Part shown: positions 7,990 to 17,720 of the stretch, one piece after another | Layout of the letters: each line of letters opens with the position of its first letter | Position numbering within the stretch: the first letter of the stretch is position 1 | Assembly (NCBI GenBank): GCA_002725995.1 | Contig: PBRQ01000055.1 | Span: 1-64,000 of the forward strand | Direction: 5' to 3' | Source: Gammaproteobacteria bacterium | GTDB lineage: Bacteria > Pseudomonadota > Gammaproteobacteria > Pseudomonadales > Azotimanducaceae | DNA length: 64,000 nucleotides | The notes under the pieces: model-generated | Told to the model about the DNA's origin: nothing | Databases searched by the model: none | What the model saw: only the letters and a program-made list of their open reading frames with translations | Translations under genes and position numbers: made by a program

Positions 7990-9624
7990 CTAATCTTCAC
8001 CGGCTTTTGAATTGAGCTCATCGGTAAATTCAACATGTTGCATCAGGGCATAGTGATAGGCCTCAACCAGGGCCCCCCAACTGGCCTTAATGATATCGAC
8101 GTTTACACCAACCGTACCAAATAGTTCGCCTTCAAAACTGTGTTCAAGGTAGACCCTCACTTTAGCAGCAGTTTCCTGTGTTGAGTTGATCACCTTGACA
8201 CTGTAGTCAGTCAGGTGCAGATCCAGCACAACCGGGAATTTCTCTACCAGGGATTTCTGTAGTGCCTTGTTCAGAGCATCAACCGGCCCGCTACCCTCAG
8301 CCGCACAGAGTTGCAGTTCATCATCCACCCTGACCTTGACCGAAGCTTCTATTAGGCCATCGCTGTCAGAGCTATCATTTTGCTCCAGGGTTTCATTACT
8401 GGGAGAATAAATCCTGTAGTAGACAGGTTCAAAACAGGCTTTAAATTTCTTTACGTGCCGGCGGACAAGAAGGTCAAAACTTCCATCCGCATTTTCAAAG
8501 GAAAAACCGGCATGCTCTTTATCCTGCACCTCTTCAAGAATGGACTTCACGGCCTTTCCGTCTTCCAGTTCCGGGTAACGGTTCGCAAGTTTTGCACGCA
8601 GGTTTGAACCACCGGCAAGCTCGCTTATGAGAATTTTCCTGGAGTTACCTATCAGTTCCGGGTCAATATGTTCATAGGTCTCAGGATTTCTCTGAACTGC
8701 ACTTACATGGATTCCACCCTTGTGCGCAAATGCAGATGGCCCAACAAAAGGCTGACCGGAAGGCCCCTGGATACCGAGGTACTCCCACACCTTTCGGCTG
8801 AGATTTGTCAGGTTCTTGAGGTTGCCTTCAGGCAGGCAGTCATAGCCAAGTTTCAGTTCAAGGTTGGCCAGTACGGATGTCAGATCAGCATTACCGCAAC
8901 GTTCCCCAATACCATTAATCGTCCCGTGGACCTGAATAACACCTTCTTCTATAGCCCGAAGGGTATTCGCAATGGCAAGACCGCCATCATTGTGCACATG
9001 GATACCCAGCTTAATGGCCGGTATTTCCTTCCTGACTTCACTAACCGCATGAGCCAGATCATGGGGCATTATGCCGCCATTGGTATCGCAAAGAATCACT
9101 CTTTGCGCACCCGCATCAACGGCTACCTGTAAAGATGCCAGCGCATAACCTGGGTCACTTCTAAAACCATCAAAAAAGTGTTCTGCATCATAAAAAACCG
9201 GTTGCCCGGTGGACTCAGAGAGATGAGCAATTGAGCTGCCAATCATCTCCAGATTTTTGTCTGGAGAAACACGTAAAGCCTGCTCCACATGAAGATCCCA
9301 GGTCTTGCCAAATATGCATGTCACATCCGGTTTGGCAGCAATCAACTTTTGCAGAAAGAAATCTTCCTCTGGTGTGGAATCAGCACGACGAGTTGAGCCG
9401 AAAGCTACAATCTTCAGCTTGTTCAGCTCCAGATCCCGAACACGGCTAAAGTATTCATCATCCTTGGGGTTCGAGCCAGGCCAGCCGCCTTCAACATAAT
9501 CGACACCCATCGCATCCAGTGCCTGCGTAATATCAAGCTTGTCACCAAGACTGAGGTTTACCCCTTCCCCCTGGTTGCCGTCACGAAGCGTGGTATCGAA
9601 AATTTCTATCTTTTTCCTAGTCAT
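7990..9624 (-). CDS. cimA: (R)-citramalate synthase (CimA type, TIGR00977-like)
   Basis: A 544-aa protein of the isopropylmalate/homocitrate synthase superfamily, condensing acetyl-CoA with pyruvate to citramalate. The N-terminal HMGL-like barrel shows IFDTTLRDGNQGEGVNLSLGDKL (catalytic and metal residues), HVHNDGGLAIANTL and GTINGIGERCGNADL. FAHKGGIHVSAV begins the linker, and the C-terminal 150 residues form a LeuA-type regulatory domain. The IEIFDTTLRDGNQ-GEGVNLS and YVEGGWPGSNPKD signatures favour the long CimA clade over LeuA. It follows leuD by 15 bp, so leuC-leuD-cimA form one operon. Together they would make 2-oxobutyrate precursors for isoleucine without threonine. Isoleucine feedback through the C-terminal domain is likely by family. 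Confidence 0.9.
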   Translation of the reverse strand: MTRKKIEIFDTTLRDGNQGEGVNLSLGDKLDITQALDAMGVDYVEGGWPGSNPKDDEYFSRVRDLELNKLKIVAFGSTRRADSTPEEDFFLQKLIAAKPDVTCIFGKTWDLHVEQALRVSPDKNLEMIGSSIAHLSESTGQPVFYDAEHFFDGFRSDPGYALASLQVAVDAGAQRVILCDTNGGIMPHDLAHAVSEVRKEIPAIKLGIHVHNDGGLAIANTLRAIEEGVIQVHGTINGIGERCGNADLTSVLANLELKLGYDCLPEGNLKNLTNLSRKVWEYLGIQGPSGQPFVGPSAFAHKGGIHVSAVQRNPETYEHIDPELIGNSRKILISELAGGSNLRAKLANRYPELEDGKAVKSILEEVQDKEHAGFSFENADGSFDLLVRRHVKKFKACFEPVYYRIYSPSNETLEQNDSSDSDGLIEASVKVRVDDELQLCAAEGSGPVDALNKALQKSLVEKFPVVLDLHLTDYSVKVINSTQETAAKVRVYLEHSFEGELFGTVGVNVDIIKASWGALVEAYHYALMQHVEFTDELNSKAGED

Positions 9625-9639
9625 AGGACTTTGCCGTGT

Positions 9640-10230
9640 TTACGTATAACCTAACTTTACAGCAGTAGCCGCTATTTCGTCTGAGGCTGCAAGCAGGTTG
9701 TCTAGTGGATCATATGTTGCCGCGAGAAATGCCTCGCGTGCACTTTCCTTCATATTAATATCGAAGATATTGTTCGCACAAATAACTTTCAGGCCTTCCA
9801 GGTCAATGATAATTTCAGCATCCGGGTCAGTTTCCACCAATGCTGAAAGTTTCCCCCGGGCATCTTTTCCCATTGTCACACATGGAATTCCGAGGGTCGT
9901 ACAGTTGCCATGAAATATTTCAGCAAAGGAGTCTGCAATCACTGCCTTCAGGCCAAATTTCTGTATGGCTTGAGGCGCATGCTCACGGCTCGAGCCACAT
10001 CCAAAATTAACGTCTGAGATGAGAATCTCTGCGCCCCGATGCTGTTCTGAATCAAGAACATGACCCTTTGAATTGCCCTCTTCATCAAAGCGCACGTCAT
10101 AAAAAAGGGATGAACCCAGCTCAGCAAAGGTAACACACTTCAAGAATCTGGCAGGAATAATCCGATCCGTATCGATATCGTTGCCTTCAACATACACACC
10201 CTTGCCGCCAAATTTTGTAATCGCCTTCAC
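9640..10230 (-). CDS. leuD: 3-isopropylmalate/citramalate dehydratase small subunit
   Basis: A 196-aa swivel-domain subunit of the aconitase family. Visible motifs are [19 protein letters not shown] near the N-terminus and [17 protein letters not shown], both typical of LeuD. GTG start inside a GTGA overlap with the leuC stop, preceded by GGAGAGG. It forms a heterodimer with LeuC to isomerise 2-isopropylmalate or, as suggested by the adjacent cimA, citramalate to 3-methylmalate. It sits between leuC and cimA on the same strand. Which substrate dominates cannot be told from sequence. Confidence 0.93.
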
Positions 10231-11645
10231 TGCACCTCTCCTAGCCCGAACACTTCACGTGCATCCGCCACCTTACCCTCAATTGCTGCGGCTGCAACCA
10301 TCAGCGGGCTCATCAGGATTGTCCGCCCCGTAGGCGAACCCTGCCGGCCAATAAAATTCCTGTTGGAACTGGAAGCACAGAGTTCATCACCGATCAGTTT
10401 ATCCGGATTCATAGCCAGGCACATGGAACATCCAGGCTTCCGCCATTCAAAACCAGCTTCTTCGAAAACCAGATGCAGATTCTTCTCCCTGGCGGCCTTG
10501 TCTACTTTTTCTGACCCCGGCACCGCAATTGCCCGTACCGACGGCAATACTTTTCGCCCCTTCAGAACCGCGGCAACCTGCTCAAAATCACTAAGCCTGC
10601 CATTAGTGCAACTGCCTAAAAAGGCAACATCAACCTTTGTCCCCTTAATCGGCTGGTTGACCTCCAATTTCATATAGTCCAGTGCATCTGAAATTAAATT
10701 CTTCTCCAAGCCTTGAACAAGGTCGGGGTCTGGAATAACTTCCTCTATGGAAATTGCCTGAGCAGGAGTAACGCCCCAGGTTATCGTCGGTTTGATCTTG
10801 GCCGCTTCAATAATTACTTCATCATCATACTGAGCATCAGCATCACTGGCGTAGCTGCGCCACTTCTTTACTTCGCTGTCAAAAGCATCACCCTCTGGAA
10901 CTCTCTCCCGCCCCTTCAGAAACTCAAATGTGGTTTCATCCGGGCTCACATACCCACACCGGGCACCACCCTCAATACTCATGTTGCAAACTGTCATCCG
11001 CTCTTCCATGGTCATATTCTCGATTACGGACCCAGCATACTCATAGGCGAAGCCTACGCCGCCATTCACGCCCAAGGTGCGTATGATATGCAAAATAACA
11101 TCCTTCGCAGTCACTCCGCGTGAAAGTTCTCCCTCAATTCTGATTCGCCTCACTTTCAGCGGATCCATTGCAATCGTCTGGCTGGCAAGGACATCACGCA
11201 CCTGACTGGTACCAATTCCGAGTGCAATACAGCCAAACGCACCGTGAGTTGAGGTGTGACTGTCACCACAGCATATGGTCATACCCGGCTGTGTTAGTCC
11301 AAGTTCGGGACTCACTACATGTACTATTCCCTGGGATCCGGATTGCGGGGCAAAAAATTCAATTTTGTTTTGCGTGGTTGCCTCGACAAGTACCTGAATC
11401 ATCCGCTCAGCCATATCATCAGCCAGCGGCCGAGACTGATCATCGGTTGGTATTATGTGGTCAACCGTTGCAAAGGTTCTTCCAGGATAGGCAACACCTA
11501 AACCCTTGTCCTTCAGCATGCCAAAGGCTTGCGGGCTGGTCACTTCGTGAATCAGGTGAAGCGCGATAAATAGCTGGTACTGACCGCTGTCCAACTGCCG
11601 TACAACATGGTCATCCCAAACCTTCTGATAAAGGTTTTTAGCCAC
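10227..11645 (-). CDS. leuC: 3-isopropylmalate/citramalate dehydratase large subunit
   Basis: A 472-aa aconitase-type [4Fe-4S] subunit of standard LeuC length. Motifs include [40 protein letters not shown] and [13 protein letters not shown], which together supply the three cluster cysteines. The start is GTG at 11645 with AGGAG about 8 nt upstream. It is first in the leuC-leuD-cimA operon and overlaps leuD by 4 nt. No leuA or leuB lies beside it, which supports a role in the citramalate branch, though dual use in leucine synthesis is possible. No leader-peptide attenuator was recognised upstream. Confidence 0.94.
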
Positions 11646-11748: not shown

Positions 11749-12831
11749 CTATGAAGGCATCGTCGGATCAACGATGATCTTTGCGTGTTTGTCCGGGTCA
11801 GCAAGGTCTTCAAACGCAGCAGGAACACCACTAAGTCCAACCCTGCCAGATATCAGGGGCGAAGCATCCACCTTCCCCTCCGCAATATTGTGCAGGGTTT
11901 GCGCGAACTCTTCCGGCGTATAACCGAGGACAAACTGTAGACTAAGCTCCTTGGTAATACCAGACATAGGCTGAAAGTGATCCTCTTCCATGCACACTCC
12001 AAGGATAACTATTCTGCCGCCCTGCGGTGCACCTGCCATTACCTGGTCTATTACGCCAGGAATACCAACGCACTCAAAAAATACGCCTGGTCGCAGTGCT
12101 GGCCCGGCAATTAGTGACTGGGGCAAGGCTCCTTCGTCAACGTCAGTCGACGCCACCTGCACCCAGCTTTCATATGGGGAGTTCTCGGCTGGATCTACTA
12201 CTAGGTCAGCACCCATGACTTCGGCCAGCTGTCGCCGCTTGGGGCTGAAATCAGCAGCTATTATTGGGCCAACCTGATTCATTTTGAGCGCGGCAATGAC
12301 TGCGAGACCAACCGGGCCACAGCCTATGACAAGCGGCACTTCTTTGCTGAGCTTCGCCACCTGCACCGCGTGATACCCAACAGCCATCGGCTCTGTCAGT
12401 GCTGCCATGTCGGTGGACAGACCGTTGGGAACTTCCAGCAGCATGGATTCAGTTAGCACCATATTTTCCGCATACCCACCCGGCACCTCATCTGAATAGC
12501 CCACTGCCTTCATTTCACCATTGCGAAAGGTCATTGGCACCGAACATACCCGCGACCCAATGGCATGTGCCTTTGTCGTTCCCGGACCATGCTCAAGTAT
12601 CTCAGCACAGAACTCGTGCCCCATGATTACACCCCGGGACAAATCCATTTCCATGGAGCCATCAGCCTGCGCTGACGCTTCACTCATCTGCGCAGCGAAT
12701 TTCAGAGCGTGCAAATCAGAGCCACAAATCCCACACGCCAATGTCTTTACGAGCACCTCTCCTTCACTCGGCTCCGGCGCCACCACATCCTCAACTTTCA
12801 GCTCCGAACCACGCATGACTACTGCTTGCAT
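11749..12831 (-). CDS. Zinc-type medium-chain alcohol dehydrogenase lacking the structural-zinc lobe
   Basis: A 360-aa MDR-superfamily protein. It has the catalytic-zinc motif CGICGSDLH, then GHEF, GGYAENMVL and a Rossmann nucleotide site (VIGCGPVGLAVIAALKM). The four-Cys structural zinc cluster usual between the GHE motif and the Rossmann fold is absent; that stretch reads SRVCSVPMTFRNGEMKAVGYSDEVPGG. It probably oxidises an alcohol or polyol with NAD(P). The ATG overlaps the TAA of the upstream 774-aa cyclase-like gene by one base (TAATG), so the two are likely coupled. The substrate is unknown. Confidence 0.87.
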   Translation of the reverse strand: MQAVVMRGSELKVEDVVAPEPSEGEVLVKTLACGICGSDLHALKFAAQMSEASAQADGSMEMDLSRGVIMGHEFCAEILEHGPGTTKAHAIGSRVCSVPMTFRNGEMKAVGYSDEVPGGYAENMVLTESMLLEVPNGLSTDMAALTEPMAVGYHAVQVAKLSKEVPLVIGCGPVGLAVIAALKMNQVGPIIAADFSPKRRQLAEVMGADLVVDPAENSPYESWVQVASTDVDEGALPQSLIAGPALRPGVFFECVGIPGVIDQVMAGAPQGGRIVILGVCMEEDHFQPMSGITKELSLQFVLGYTPEEFAQTLHNIAEGKVDASPLISGRVGLSGVPAAFEDLADPDKHAKIIVDPTMPS

Positions 12832-15155
12832 TATTCAGCTCCTGCTGCTGTTTGTTTTTCAGAAAGGCTGATGACTTGATTTGCATATTTTGAATTGGGG
12901 AGCACCTCATAAAATACGTCATCGGAATCAGCCAACTGCTCCACCTTCTCATCCTTCCACAGGCCAACCTTACCAACCCTCACAACAAGGTGCCTTTCCT
13001 TCCCTTTGACATCTGGAAATTTGCCAACGCACAGGGTTTCATCCCTGCCTCCAGACTTTATGTTCATCTGTGTAAAATTCACCTCAATCTTTAACTTCTC
13101 GAAGGCCGCAGCATCCAACAGAATGCCATTCACGTTGTATCGAATCTGGTGCTGGCCCTTTTCACCCTTTTGTGCATCGGACTCACTTATCTCAAGAACC
13201 TCAACATTAAAATCACCTGAATCGAAGCTATCTCGTAATTTCCAGGAGCAGGAAGACATTCGATCAGCACCACCAATTGCTGACGATATCATTATGGGGC
13301 GCTTATCATCGAATAGAAAGAGGGGGATCTCATTCGAAAAACAAATACCAATACCAATCTCCAGCTTAGGAAGTCCGGTCTTGGCGGAGTGAGAATTTTT
13401 AGAATTGACGATATCGAGCATTTCTTTGGCCATTCCACAGGCACGCGATACTGAGTACCACTCGGTTGGGCTACCTTCATATTCATAGGTGCCGAGGATC
13501 ACTGCATCACCCTCGATAAAAACTTTAGCCGCACCATAGGTCTTGAGCCTTTCATTGATGGGGTCAAAAAAACGTAAACTGAAGTAGCTTGCCGGGTTCA
13601 GATCCCGGCGCAGCAATTCCTGGGTAACCGTCGTCGAGCCACGAACATCAGCTTTTAGAATTGTGTGATGGATAATCTCCGGGAGCTCATCCGCAACCTG
13701 TTTCACTTCTTCGCTATCCATCAGGCAAAATAGTTGCCCTCCGGCCCTTGCAAGCTGTAGTTGTTCTGCATCTGTAATGACTGAGATGCGATTGAATACG
13801 CGATGTGCAAACCGATAATACTTCAGGTGAAAACGATAGCGGCTGATATCCGTCAAAAGCTTCAACATCAACTCATCTTCTGATTTCCTGTCTTTTTCAT
13901 CGTACTCATCAGCAAGAGTTATCAGTTTCTGGGAGAGCGTTTTTGCCCCTTTCTTGGATAAACCTATTGCCTCAATAATCTTCTTCGTGTCATTTCCTGC
14001 CACTGCTGATACGGCATCAGCCACATCAATGAGACCAAGATCCTGCTGGGTTAGTTTTTCCCGCAGAAAGTAAGTCGCCATCATCTCTTTGACGTCGCTA
14101 CTACTGGCGATCTCCTTTCGTATTTCCGCAAGGATTTTTGACAGCTTCTTTGTAGCCGAGTTGAAAGACCAATGGGCCTTCATCCCCAGTTGCCCCTTAA
14201 CCTTGGCCGCAAGCTTTCCATGAAAATTCTCATCAAATAGCAAGCGAATATTTCCAGGCTGCTCAAGCCAGCTGAATGACTCGGATATGACTTCCTTCTG
14301 ATCCTCCGATGGTCCCAGCAGTGACTGCACTGCAAAGAGCCCACCAAGGGCATCGTAGACCTCCACTTGTGCTGACGTGAGGTTGGTCATGTTCTTCAGG
14401 GAGTCAGCCTTTATTTCCGGCAATCTTTTAGCCAGAACATTTTCAAGGGCAGTATTCAGCTTCTCAAACCCCACGCCCCCGCCGGACCACAGGGCGTAGC
14501 ACTCAAGCAATAACACGGGCTCCTGGGGAGATCTGGCGTACAGGAGTGGATTATACATAATATTGGCAGCTTCAGAGAGGTCATCTCCAAGCACCTGTGC
14601 ACGGAGTTCCTTTAGCTGATTGTTTTCTTCCCGCTGCAGTTGTTTCAGGAGCAGCCGGCAAATCCGAAACATAAACTCATTAGAGTATTTCCTGAACCAG
14701 GTGATTTTCTCCTGCGTGGTCAACAAACTCCTCGAGCCGGAATACTGCTGCTGCCCCTGGGTTTCCTCCAGCTTCGCACGATATTTGTCCAATTCATCAC
14801 GAACCTGCTGAAGAATGAACTTAACCACCGCAAATTGAAGAACTCTGATCTGACCCCGCTTCAGGTCAGTTTTGTAACGATGCAGCGTCACACGCATCAT
14901 GTTCGTATAGGCTTCTCGGAAGTCGTTGACCTCCTTCGAGTTACCAGAAACCAGTTTGTTCCCGGCAACAATTCGCTTGACCTGGCCCTCTATTATTTCC
15001 CTCGCCTTGAAGGAAAAGGTTAGGGAAAGCTCCACATCAATGTGGTAGTTATCAACACCCTTATTGGCCACACTACAGTCTAGCTTAACCTCCCTCGGAG
15101 TTTTTACTCTTTCCAGGATGTCATCAAGTGACGCTATTATTTGTTGTTCTGCCAT
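12831..15155 (-). CDS. Unrecognised 774-aa cytoplasmic protein with a divergent class III nucleotidyl-cyclase-like domain
   Basis: No signal peptide or membrane helix is visible. About 490 N-terminal residues are charged, mostly helical and match no family I recognise. From about residue 495 the sequence resembles a class III adenylate/guanylate cyclase core: ILKADVRGSTTVTQEL (Asp503 at the first metal-ligand position), KVFIEGDAVILGTYEYE (Asp550, 47 residues later, close to the usual spacing), IGIGICFSNE and SSAIGGADRMSS. At the last motif the usual transition-state Asn of VNxAaR is Gly628, while Arg632 is kept. It may be a cyclase, a non-cyclising nucleotide-binding relative or a degenerate sensor. 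It follows the radical SAM gene amrS by 4 bp and overlaps the dehydrogenase gene. The domain call is mine and moderate. Confidence 0.6.
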   Translation of the reverse strand: MAEQQIIASLDDILERVKTPREVKLDCSVANKGVDNYHIDVELSLTFSFKAREIIEGQVKRIVAGNKLVSGNSKEVNDFREAYTNMMRVTLHRYKTDLKRGQIRVLQFAVVKFILQQVRDELDKYRAKLEETQGQQQYSGSRSLLTTQEKITWFRKYSNEFMFRICRLLLKQLQREENNQLKELRAQVLGDDLSEAANIMYNPLLYARSPQEPVLLLECYALWSGGGVGFEKLNTALENVLAKRLPEIKADSLKNMTNLTSAQVEVYDALGGLFAVQSLLGPSEDQKEVISESFSWLEQPGNIRLLFDENFHGKLAAKVKGQLGMKAHWSFNSATKKLSKILAEIRKEIASSSDVKEMMATYFLREKLTQQDLGLIDVADAVSAVAGNDTKKIIEAIGLSKKGAKTLSQKLITLADEYDEKDRKSEDELMLKLLTDISRYRFHLKYYRFAHRVFNRISVITDAEQLQLARAGGQLFCLMDSEEVKQVADELPEIIHHTILKADVRGSTTVTQELLRRDLNPASYFSLRFFDPINERLKTYGAAKVFIEGDAVILGTYEYEGSPTEWYSVSRACGMAKEMLDIVNSKNSHSAKTGLPKLEIGIGICFSNEIPLFLFDDKRPIMISSAIGGADRMSSCSWKLRDSFDSGDFNVEVLEISESDAQKGEKGQHQIRYNVNGILLDAAAFEKLKIEVNFTQMNIKSGGRDETLCVGKFPDVKGKERHLVVRVGKVGLWKDEKVEQLADSDDVFYEVLPNSKYANQVISLSEKQTAAGAE

Positions 15156-15159
15156 TTTT

Positions 15160-16314
15160 CTACCGACCTAACCTCACAGCCTGTCGCTTTGGCCCCCAAT
15201 CCCCAGGGCCCGCCTCAAAAACACCAGCAATCCATTCACCGCAGGAACGGCAGCAACCCTGGCTATCCAGTTGCCATTTGTCGAGCTTATACCAGTCCCG
15301 CTCAATCAACATAGTCTCGCATGAAGGGCACCAGGTAGAACCTCCTTCGCTATCGTGAACATTACCAATATAAACAAACTTCAAGCCATTGGATTTTGCA
15401 ATTTTTCTCGCCCTGCTCAAGGTTGCTGGTGGTGTTGAGGGTTTGTCAGTCATTTTGAAATCGGGGTGAAAGGCTGAGAAGTGGATCGGCACATCTTCGC
15501 CAAGGTTTTCAACCACCCACTGGCTCATAGCTTCAATCTCATCCGTAGAATCATTCTCACCTGGAATCAATAGCGTAGTGAGTTCAAACCAGATACTTGT
15601 CTCGTGCTTCAAGTACAGCAATGTATCTAGTACATCCGCCAGGTGCCCTCCACAAATCTTGTGATAAAAATGTTCACTGAAGGCCTTCAGATCTATGTTG
15701 GCAGCATCCATATATTCAAAAAATTCACGCCTGGGCTCAGGGCAAATATACCCGGCGGTAACAGCAACGGAGTTGATTCCCTTATCCCTGGCAGCAGCAG
15801 CTACATCAATGGCATATTCGTGAAAGATCACAGGATCATTGTAGGTATAAGCGATACTTCTGCACCCAAGCGCCGTCGCTGCTTCCACCAACACTTCAGG
15901 TGAGGCGGCATCTGCCAGCGTCTGCATTTCCCTTGATTTGCTCATATCCCAGTTCTGGCAGAACTTGCATACAAGGTTGCAACCCGCCGTCCCAAACGAA
16001 AGGACCGGGGTACCAGGCAGAAAGTGATTCAGTGGTTTCTTTTCGATTGGATCAACACAGAAACCACTGGATAACCCATAGGTAGTCAATACTATTTCAT
16101 CGTTCTGTCTGGCACGGACAAAACACAAACCCTGCTGCCCCTGTCGCAACCTGCAATGGCGGGGACATAAATCGCATTGCAGACGACCATCATCACATTT
16201 GCGCCAATACCGGGTACCGACCACACTAGATGTCCCAGGTTTATGAATGCCCTTGCCAAGCTGCCAATTAAGAATTGATGACATTTTCGCAGATGATTGA
16301 TTTAGAATGACCAT
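15160..16314 (-). CDS. amrS: AmmeMemoRadiSam system radical SAM enzyme
   Basis: A 384-aa radical SAM protein. The [4Fe-4S] motif is C112xxxC116xxC119 in FGTAGCNLVCKFCQNWDMSK. Upstream of it lies the family-specific CDLCPRHCRLRQGQQGLCFVR segment, and the C-terminus has a Cys-rich tail (WCPSCETML ... GCCRSCGEW) suggesting a further metal site. The partner AmrB-AmrA fusion lies divergently. The ORF ATG at 16314 is only 20 nt from that partner's ATG and has no ribosome site, so the internal ATG at 16284 (MSSILNWQLG) is an attractive alternative start. The gene leads the amrS-cyclase-like-dehydrogenase operon. The reaction of AmrS is not established to my knowledge. Confidence 0.92.
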   Translation of the reverse strand: MVILNQSSAKMSSILNWQLGKGIHKPGTSSVVGTRYWRKCDDGRLQCDLCPRHCRLRQGQQGLCFVRARQNDEIVLTTYGLSSGFCVDPIEKKPLNHFLPGTPVLSFGTAGCNLVCKFCQNWDMSKSREMQTLADAASPEVLVEAATALGCRSIAYTYNDPVIFHEYAIDVAAAARDKGINSVAVTAGYICPEPRREFFEYMDAANIDLKAFSEHFYHKICGGHLADVLDTLLYLKHETSIWFELTTLLIPGENDSTDEIEAMSQWVVENLGEDVPIHFSAFHPDFKMTDKPSTPPATLSRARKIAKSNGLKFVYIGNVHDSEGGSTWCPSCETMLIERDWYKLDKWQLDSQGCCRSCGEWIAGVFEAGPGDWGPKRQAVRLGR

Positions 16315-16334: not shown

Positions 16335-17720
16335 ATGAGCGCAGTGAGGCTCCCAGCAGTAGCAGGAACGTTTTATCCGTCAAATGACGATGTACTTTCG
16401 TCATCCGTCGACGCCATGCTGCGCAATAGTACCAACGGCCTCCCCTGCCCAAAGGTTATCATCGCCCCCCATGCAGGCCACGTCTATTCAGGTCAAATAG
16501 CGGCCAGCGCCTACAGCCGTCTAAGTAATACTGATACCCCTATTAAACGGGTCGTCCTGTTGGGACCATCCCACAAAGTAGCCTTCAAGGGTGTTGCAGC
16601 CACCAGCTGCACCGCCTATAAAACACCTCTTGGTGAAATTCCTGTTGATTCTGCTGCTGTACAGACAATATTGCAGCTGCCTGGCACCGGTTTCCTTGAT
16701 GAAGCCCATACTAACGAGCATAGCCTGGAGGTACACCTGCCATTTTTGCAACGGGAACTGGGAGCATTCTCACTGGTGCCGCTCGTAGTCGGAGACGCGA
16801 CTAAAGATGAAGTGGCCAACGTTATCAACGCACTTTGGGGTGGCGCAGAAACCCTGATCATAGTCAGCTCTGACCTCAGCCATTTTCATGCCTACGACAA
16901 GGCCCGGGAAATTGACACCCAGACGTCCAGAAAAATACTCACTCTGGAAAGCAACCTGGTGGGTGAAGAAGCATGTGGCTGCAGACCGATTAATGGTTTG
17001 CTGCATGTTTTGAAAGCAAGAGGCCTTAAAGTTGAACAGCTTTCCGTTTTGAATTCAGGTGATACAGCCGGGGACAAGGATCGGGTCGTCGGCTATGGCG
17101 CATACATTGTTCTGGAAGCACCAGGAATTTTGAAGAATGAGACAGAAGCGAACACGATGGATAGCCAATTGCCACTGGCCTTTCGGCAACGGCTACTACA
17201 GGTTGCGAGAGGGACTGTTTTGAGCTCTCTGGAAAGCAGCGGAATCTACAATATTGATCTCGACAGCTACCCACCCGAACTCAAACAAGAGAGAGCAACC
17301 TTCGTTACCCTAAATATCAATGATAGCCTTCGAGGCTGTATAGGCAGTCTGGCCGCCCACAGGCCCCTGGTAGTCGACATAGCGCACAACGCACAGGCTG
17401 CTGCCTTTAAGGATCCCCGGTTCAAGCCCTTGACCCTGGCGGAATTTCAGCATGTTGATTTCCATATATCGGTGCTCAGCGTTCCGCGAGTACTGGCGGT
17501 ATCATCAAGATCAGAGCTCATGGACAAACTGAGGCCTGGAATCGATGGTTTGATCATTGAAGAAAAGGGAAGAAGGGCAACCTACCTGCCCTCCGTTTGG
17601 GAGCAAATCAGCGACGCTGAAACATTTGTGTCAGAGCTTCGCAGGAAGGCGGGGCTGGATGCAACTGGGTGGCACGCAGATACAGTGGTACATCAGTACA
17701 CCACGGAGGAGTTCTGTTAG
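16335..17720 (+). CDS. AmmeMemoRadiSam fused protein: AmrB (Memo-like) + AmrA (AMMECR1-like)
   Basis: A 461-aa two-domain protein. Residues 1-262 are Memo-like: RLPAVAGTFYP at the start, APHAGH (44-49), GPSH (77-80), NEHSLEVH (127-134) and SSDLSH (178-183), giving the His-rich metal or dioxygenase-like pocket of that fold. Residues ~280-461 are AMMECR1-like with the signature SLRGCIGS near residue 335, then AAAFKDPRFKPL and a normal C-terminal end. AGGA precedes the ATG. The divergent neighbour amrS completes the three-component system, whose role remains obscure. Fusion of A and B is known in the family but supports physical cooperation. Cytoplasmic. Confidence 0.93.
   Translation: MSAVRLPAVAGTFYPSNDDVLSSSVDAMLRNSTNGLPCPKVIIAPHAGHVYSGQIAASAYSRLSNTDTPIKRVVLLGPSHKVAFKGVAATSCTAYKTPLGEIPVDSAAVQTILQLPGTGFLDEAHTNEHSLEVHLPFLQRELGAFSLVPLVVGDATKDEVANVINALWGGAETLIIVSSDLSHFHAYDKAREIDTQTSRKILTLESNLVGEEACGCRPINGLLHVLKARGLKVEQLSVLNSGDTAGDKDRVVGYGAYIVLEAPGILKNETEANTMDSQLPLAFRQRLLQVARGTVLSSLESSGIYNIDLDSYPPELKQERATFVTLNINDSLRGCIGSLAAHRPLVVDIAHNAQAAAFKDPRFKPLTLAEFQHVDFHISVLSVPRVLAVSSRSELMDKLRPGIDGLIIEEKGRRATYLPSVWEQISDAETFVSELRRKAGLDATGWHADTVVHQYTTEEFC

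Follow-up and report, generated by a model that had tools for sequence, protein, structure and literature searches.

Within the 64,000-nucleotide window (the whole stretch of DNA that was analyzed), a minus-strand gene at positions 12831 to 15155, running from ATG to TAA and present as a single copy in the genome, encodes a cyclase-like protein of 774 amino acids, here called P0001. Upstream on the same strand lies amrS, encoding the AmmeMemoRadiSam radical SAM enzyme (15160 to 16314, minus strand; TIGR04337, 643 bits). Only 4 nucleotides separate the amrS stop from the P0001 start, and the two genes are presumed to form one operon, as a preliminary description of this DNA had stated. The P0001 stop overlaps the start of a zinc alcohol dehydrogenase-like gene (11749 to 12831, minus strand; PF00107 and PF08240) in the sequence TAATG, and a gene for an AmmeMemoRadiSam B-A fusion combining Memo and AMMECR1 (16335 to 17720, plus strand; TIGR04336, TIGR04335, PF01875, and PF01871) is divergent to amrS and P0001. 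Citramalate synthase-like, leuD-like, and leuC-like genes were read after this operon (7990 to 11645, minus strand); in many loci of the organism's own taxonomic family, including those that have no amrS, leuC lies directly downstream of the P0001 gene. Judging from comparison with an 86% ortholog, P0001 is under purifying selection, with a dN/dS of about 0.06 overall and 0.03 in the cyclase core, its slowest-evolving part, values that are rough because dS is high (1.28) and near saturation.

Neither P0001 nor profiles of its relatives gave a credible sequence match in Pfam, NCBIfam, or the PDB, and PDB profile searches with alignments of the relatives found nothing relevant. The Pfam cyclase model PF00211 did not match P0001 above its cutoff. 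In the same genome this model matched two loci: L026 (G000:C7:51775-52317), which encodes the genome's only clear example of an ordinary class III cyclase, and, below the cutoff, L027. By sequence, the best ordinary relative of P0001 was a CHASE2 cyclase. The N-terminal part (residues 1 to 484, positions 13704 to 15155, minus strand) is predicted to be helical in a low-confidence model, and no Pfam or NCBIfam model matched residues 1 to 490 above its cutoff, in keeping with the earlier remark that this region resembles no recognizable domain. Matches to TSNAXIP1_N and CUX1_N (E values of 0.02 to 0.4, below cutoff) were taken as coiled-coil noise, and profile-profile alignment of the N-terminal part with cyclases returned nothing. 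Residues 33 to 40 form a conserved motif, G(I/V)DN...D. The N-terminal part also occurs in full-length relatives from other families, and the N-terminal and cyclase-like parts were found together in all relatives readable in full.

The origin of the C-terminal part was clarified by aligning profiles. With the C-terminal part of 22 P0001 relatives as the query and 30 ordinary class III cyclases as the template, hhalign returned probabilities of 97.5 to 98.6% and E values of 1e-11 to 1e-14, varying with the crop. Controls gave E values of 0.0035 for GGDEF domains and 0.08 to 0.8 for 20 column-shuffled cyclase alignments. By these alignments the resemblance to cyclases is beyond chance, and the preliminary description was right to propose a large protein with a divergent class III cyclase-like core (98%, E value of about 1e-13, against controls of at least 0.0035). 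The domain, supported by both hhalign and an AlphaFold crop, spans residues of about 490 to 735 (positions 12951 to 13688, minus strand), so that the proposed end at residue 670 falls short. An insertion of about 27 residues interrupts it at residues of about 641 to 667 (positions 13155 to 13235, minus strand). The alignment lengthens when this insertion is removed, reaching 98.0%, an E value of 2.3e-13, and 162 columns over template positions 2 to 170 of 188, nearly the entire catalytic domain.

Structure prediction pointed the same way. An AlphaFold crop of residues 483 to 774 was of modest confidence (pLDDT of 61, pTM of 0.68), with weakness at residues 609 to 675 and a pLDDT below 50 in the stretch containing G628 and R632. 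The top Foldseek matches of this crop in the PDB were CyaC, Cya2, and CyaB (E values of 1e-6 to 1e-5), and ranks 1 to 39 were all class III cyclase-fold entries, so the non-cyclase fold that might have overturned the proposal did not appear. Modeling of the full-length protein from an alignment of 8 close orthologs gave low confidence (pLDDT of 51); the fold search with this model gave weak cyclase matches, noise for the N terminus, and, weakly, mCpol. GGDEF domains, mCpol, and polymerases share a palm fold. Together with the odd pocket and the insertion near the conserved Arg, this could indicate a nucleotidyl transferase with other chemistry, for instance one that produces a dinucleotide, linear or cyclic, or that modifies protein or RNA. 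We consider this very unlikely, however; the class III cyclase alignment is far better than that with GGDEF and also takes in the latter half of the cyclase domain.

The alignment also identifies the putative active site. D503 (in KADVRGST; positions 13647 to 13649, minus strand), the predicted first metal-ligand Asp, aligns with the Asp of the cyclase FxDI motif, and D550 (in KVFIEGDAVIL; 13506 to 13508, minus strand), the predicted second, aligns with the Asp of the cyclase GD motif. Their spacing of 47 residues agrees with the near-canonical spacing noted earlier; among 30 ordinary class III cyclases, 28 have a spacing of 44. Farther along, in the segment from G628 to R632 (13260 to 13274, minus strand), hhalign places G628 opposite the catalytic Asn and R632 opposite the Arg, the same assignment as in the preliminary description. 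This register is confident only once the insertion is removed, and it is supported by three relatives (L066, L069, and L074) in which Asn stands at the position of G628. A different register, in which R632 would face the catalytic Asn and C636 the Arg, was overturned by the profile alignment. The transition-state Asn is a Gly in P0001, as had been claimed, and its loss is no fixed trait of the family, in which the position is G, A, S, or, in the three members named, N; these three do not form a single clade in the tree. By homology and its metal site, P0001 represents an undescribed proteobacterial family within the class III nucleotidyl cyclase superfamily.

Members of this family are scattered. 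The gene was present in 30 of 207 genomes from the organism's own family, in 16 of 369 genomes of a class-wide draw, where it was spread over nine gammaproteobacterial families, and in three further genomes of a phylum-wide draw, all from one family outside the Gammaproteobacteria. (A match in G277, with a CHASE2-like start, was left out of the member count as probably an ordinary cyclase, judged from its sequence.) A scan of viral contigs found no relatives of P0001. Several members, located in one part of the tree, have an additional N-terminal Peptidase_A8 (signal peptidase II) domain, with E values down to 3e-16. This domain was matched in L058, L065, L066, and L069 and recognized by eye in L067 and L068. 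Read by eye, the sequences show a replacement of one or both catalytic Asp residues of this domain, which is apparently degenerate. No paper on the P0001 family or on a fusion of signal peptidase II with a cyclase was found in the open-access literature. Outside the organism's own family the neighbors of the gene varied; DUF2062-like genes were seen by eye near it in two distant lineages (L114 and L121), which may be chance.

In the putative site, many families share D503, D550, R632, K544, F546, and E548. Of 42 genomes, 41 retain both Asp residues (25 of 26 readable ones from the organism's own family and 16 of 16 outside it), so that the loss of both in orthologs, which was to count against the proposal, is not borne out; the single exception has lost the whole site. 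In this genome (G005, L022/L051), D503, D550, S507, K544, F546, E548, and R632 have all changed together, as would fit residues that form one working site. The L022 gene (1306 to 3705, minus strand) is still full length and at the same locus, between amrS and leuC, and its product is, as far as sequence can tell, a natural pseudoenzyme.

More unusual than the missing Asn is the putative base pocket of P0001. The base-reading positions of adenylyl and pyrimidine cyclases (PMC4215837 and PMC11224242) are occupied by K501, F546, E548, and S625, the first three of which are nearly invariant. K501, two residues before D503 (13653 to 13655, minus strand), is usually Phe in ordinary cyclases and is replaced by Asn in L022. 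F546 and E548 (13512 to 13520 with I547, minus strand) lie four and two residues before D550, F546 falling at the position of the adenine-specifying Lys, and both are invariant except in the degenerate L022. The residues that set adenylyl or guanylyl specificity (a Lys-Asp pair, or Glu with a small residue) are absent, with F546, which is neither Lys nor Glu, and S625 in their places. Replacement of this pocket speaks against plain ATP or GTP specificity.

Compared to class III adenylyl and guanylyl cyclases (PF00211; CyaC, Cya2, and CyaB), P0001 has a homologous catalytic domain, the two Asp residues, the Arg, and near-canonical spacing. It differs in having F546 and S625 for the adenine-specifying Lys and Asp, Gly for Asn, 3 extra residues between the Asp residues, an insertion after the Arg, and an N terminus of 480 amino acids that matches no domain. 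It is not grouped with the adenylyl and guanylyl cyclases proper because PF00211 does not match it and the base-specifying residues are missing. The closest parallel for the missing Asn is Ma1120 of Mycobacterium avium, an active cyclase with Ala at this position, in which restoring the Asn is harmful (PMC4215837). Like P0001, Ma1120 has a class III domain that lacks the Asn and keeps the Arg; it departs from P0001 in retaining the Lys and Asp that specify ATP and in being active as an adenylyl cyclase (PMC4215837). Pycsar PycC enzymes (PMC11224242; PDB 8JSZ and 6YII, the latter a clade A PycC according to PMC11224242) resemble P0001 in combining a class III fold with a nonadenylyl base pocket. 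In the pyrimidine cyclase EaPycC, the base is selected by F100, R142, and Q144, located two residues before the first metal Asp and four and two residues before the second (PMC11224242). These are the positions of K501, F546, and E548 in P0001, whose residues (K/F/E) differ. PADLOC PycC models scored P0001 at an E value of only 0.014, not taken as a match, and the ordinary cyclase L026 at 4e-30; these models may respond to ordinary cyclases. No Pyc effector (PycTM or PycTIR) adjoins P0001 in the window, where its neighbors are amrS, the alcohol dehydrogenase-like gene, and the AmmeMemoRadiSam fusion. Because the base-specifying residues, the PADLOC model, and the effector neighborhood all fail to agree, P0001 is not classed as a Pycsar cyclase.

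The missing Asn is in itself unremarkable, since Ma1120 is active without it and three P0001 relatives have it, and the replaced pocket points more strongly toward an unusual nucleotide. With the metal-binding core kept and the base-recognition residues lost, P0001 may synthesize such a nucleotide or respond to it, as the preliminary description had suggested and as we also infer.

Making and sensing are separate hypotheses. We put at about an even chance that P0001 is an atypical nucleotidyl cyclase with slow or conditional NTP cyclization. Catalysis is favored because the metal Asp residues and the Arg are conserved, and loss of the Asn is compatible with it, given the activity of Ma1120 with Ala at this position (PMC4215837). 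Class III cyclases work as homodimers whose active sites are shared and form 3',5'-cyclic nucleotides; for P0001 we infer dimerization, the binding of metal and NTP, and catalysis, as well as the nucleotide used and the signal sensed. In such an enzyme, D503, D550, and R632 at each site would hold and activate the NTP via two metal ions. K501, F546, and E548 would form a new base pocket in place of the Lys-Asp pair of adenylyl cyclases, so that the NTP would not be recognized in the usual ATP or GTP manner. Cyclization would be controlled by the helical N-terminal domain of about 480 residues and, in relatives, also by the membrane domain of signal peptidase II origin.

The main rival to the cyclase reading, which we regard as a serious possibility though a doubtful one, is a pseudocyclase that makes no cyclic nucleotide. 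It would bind NTP together with metal, thereby sensing the nucleotide or gauging the energy state, and would relay this to the helical N-terminal domain. Loss of the Asn (in most members) and replacement of the usual substrate-specifying residues would fit nucleotide binding of this kind as well, and L022 shows, as judged from its altered residues, that loss of the site need not eliminate the protein. PF00211 fails to recognize the P0001 family, and no conserved cyclic-nucleotide receptor was seen beside the gene when open reading frames at distant loci were read by eye. Binding-only sites often lose one metal Asp, however, whereas nearly all P0001 genomes retain both, together with the Arg.

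Compatible with any of these mechanisms, P0001 could be a dedicated part of the AmmeMemoRadiSam pathway, acting with amrS and Memo/AMMECR1. The amrS gene lies directly upstream of the P0001 gene in most loci of the organism's own family, as in the presumed operon of the window. Within this family, amrS was detected in 22 of 30 genomes with a P0001 gene, compared to 46 of 207 overall (Fisher P value of 6e-11), and in the class-wide draw it was detected in 15 of 16 such genomes, compared to 186 of 369 (50%; P value of 2e-4). Both P values are inflated because the genomes are related, and the association is suggestive only. Linkage is confined to the organism's own family, however, the two genes being on different contigs in the genomes checked elsewhere. 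In addition, amrS occurs in half of the class and the P0001 gene in few genomes, and several genomes (G028, G041, G055, G598, and G649) have a P0001 gene with no detected amrS. Gene neighborhood and co-occurrence thus suggest a link to the AmmeMemoRadiSam system, and the stronger proposal of a dedicated pathway component is, in our estimation, unlikely. Still more speculative is a new branch of nucleotide signaling alongside AmmeMemoRadiSam, in which a nucleotide other than cAMP, cGMP, cCMP, or cUMP would be handled through the K/F/E pocket; this branch, taken jointly with its possible inputs, the helical domain or the dead signal peptidase II membrane domain, is unlikely as well.

The NCBIfam models of the AmmeMemoRadiSam system are still labeled hypothetical equivalogs, and if the signaling branch proves real, this orphan system gains a signaling partner. 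The amrS neighborhood offers an experimental handle on the system. P0001 belongs to a family that is conserved in many proteobacterial families and was missed by standard domain libraries, with a complete metal site and a base pocket unlike those of adenylyl, guanylyl, or described pyrimidine cyclases. An active P0001 would add to the known second-messenger enzymes, and its product might be new; an inactive one would clearly exemplify the conversion of a cyclase into a sensor.
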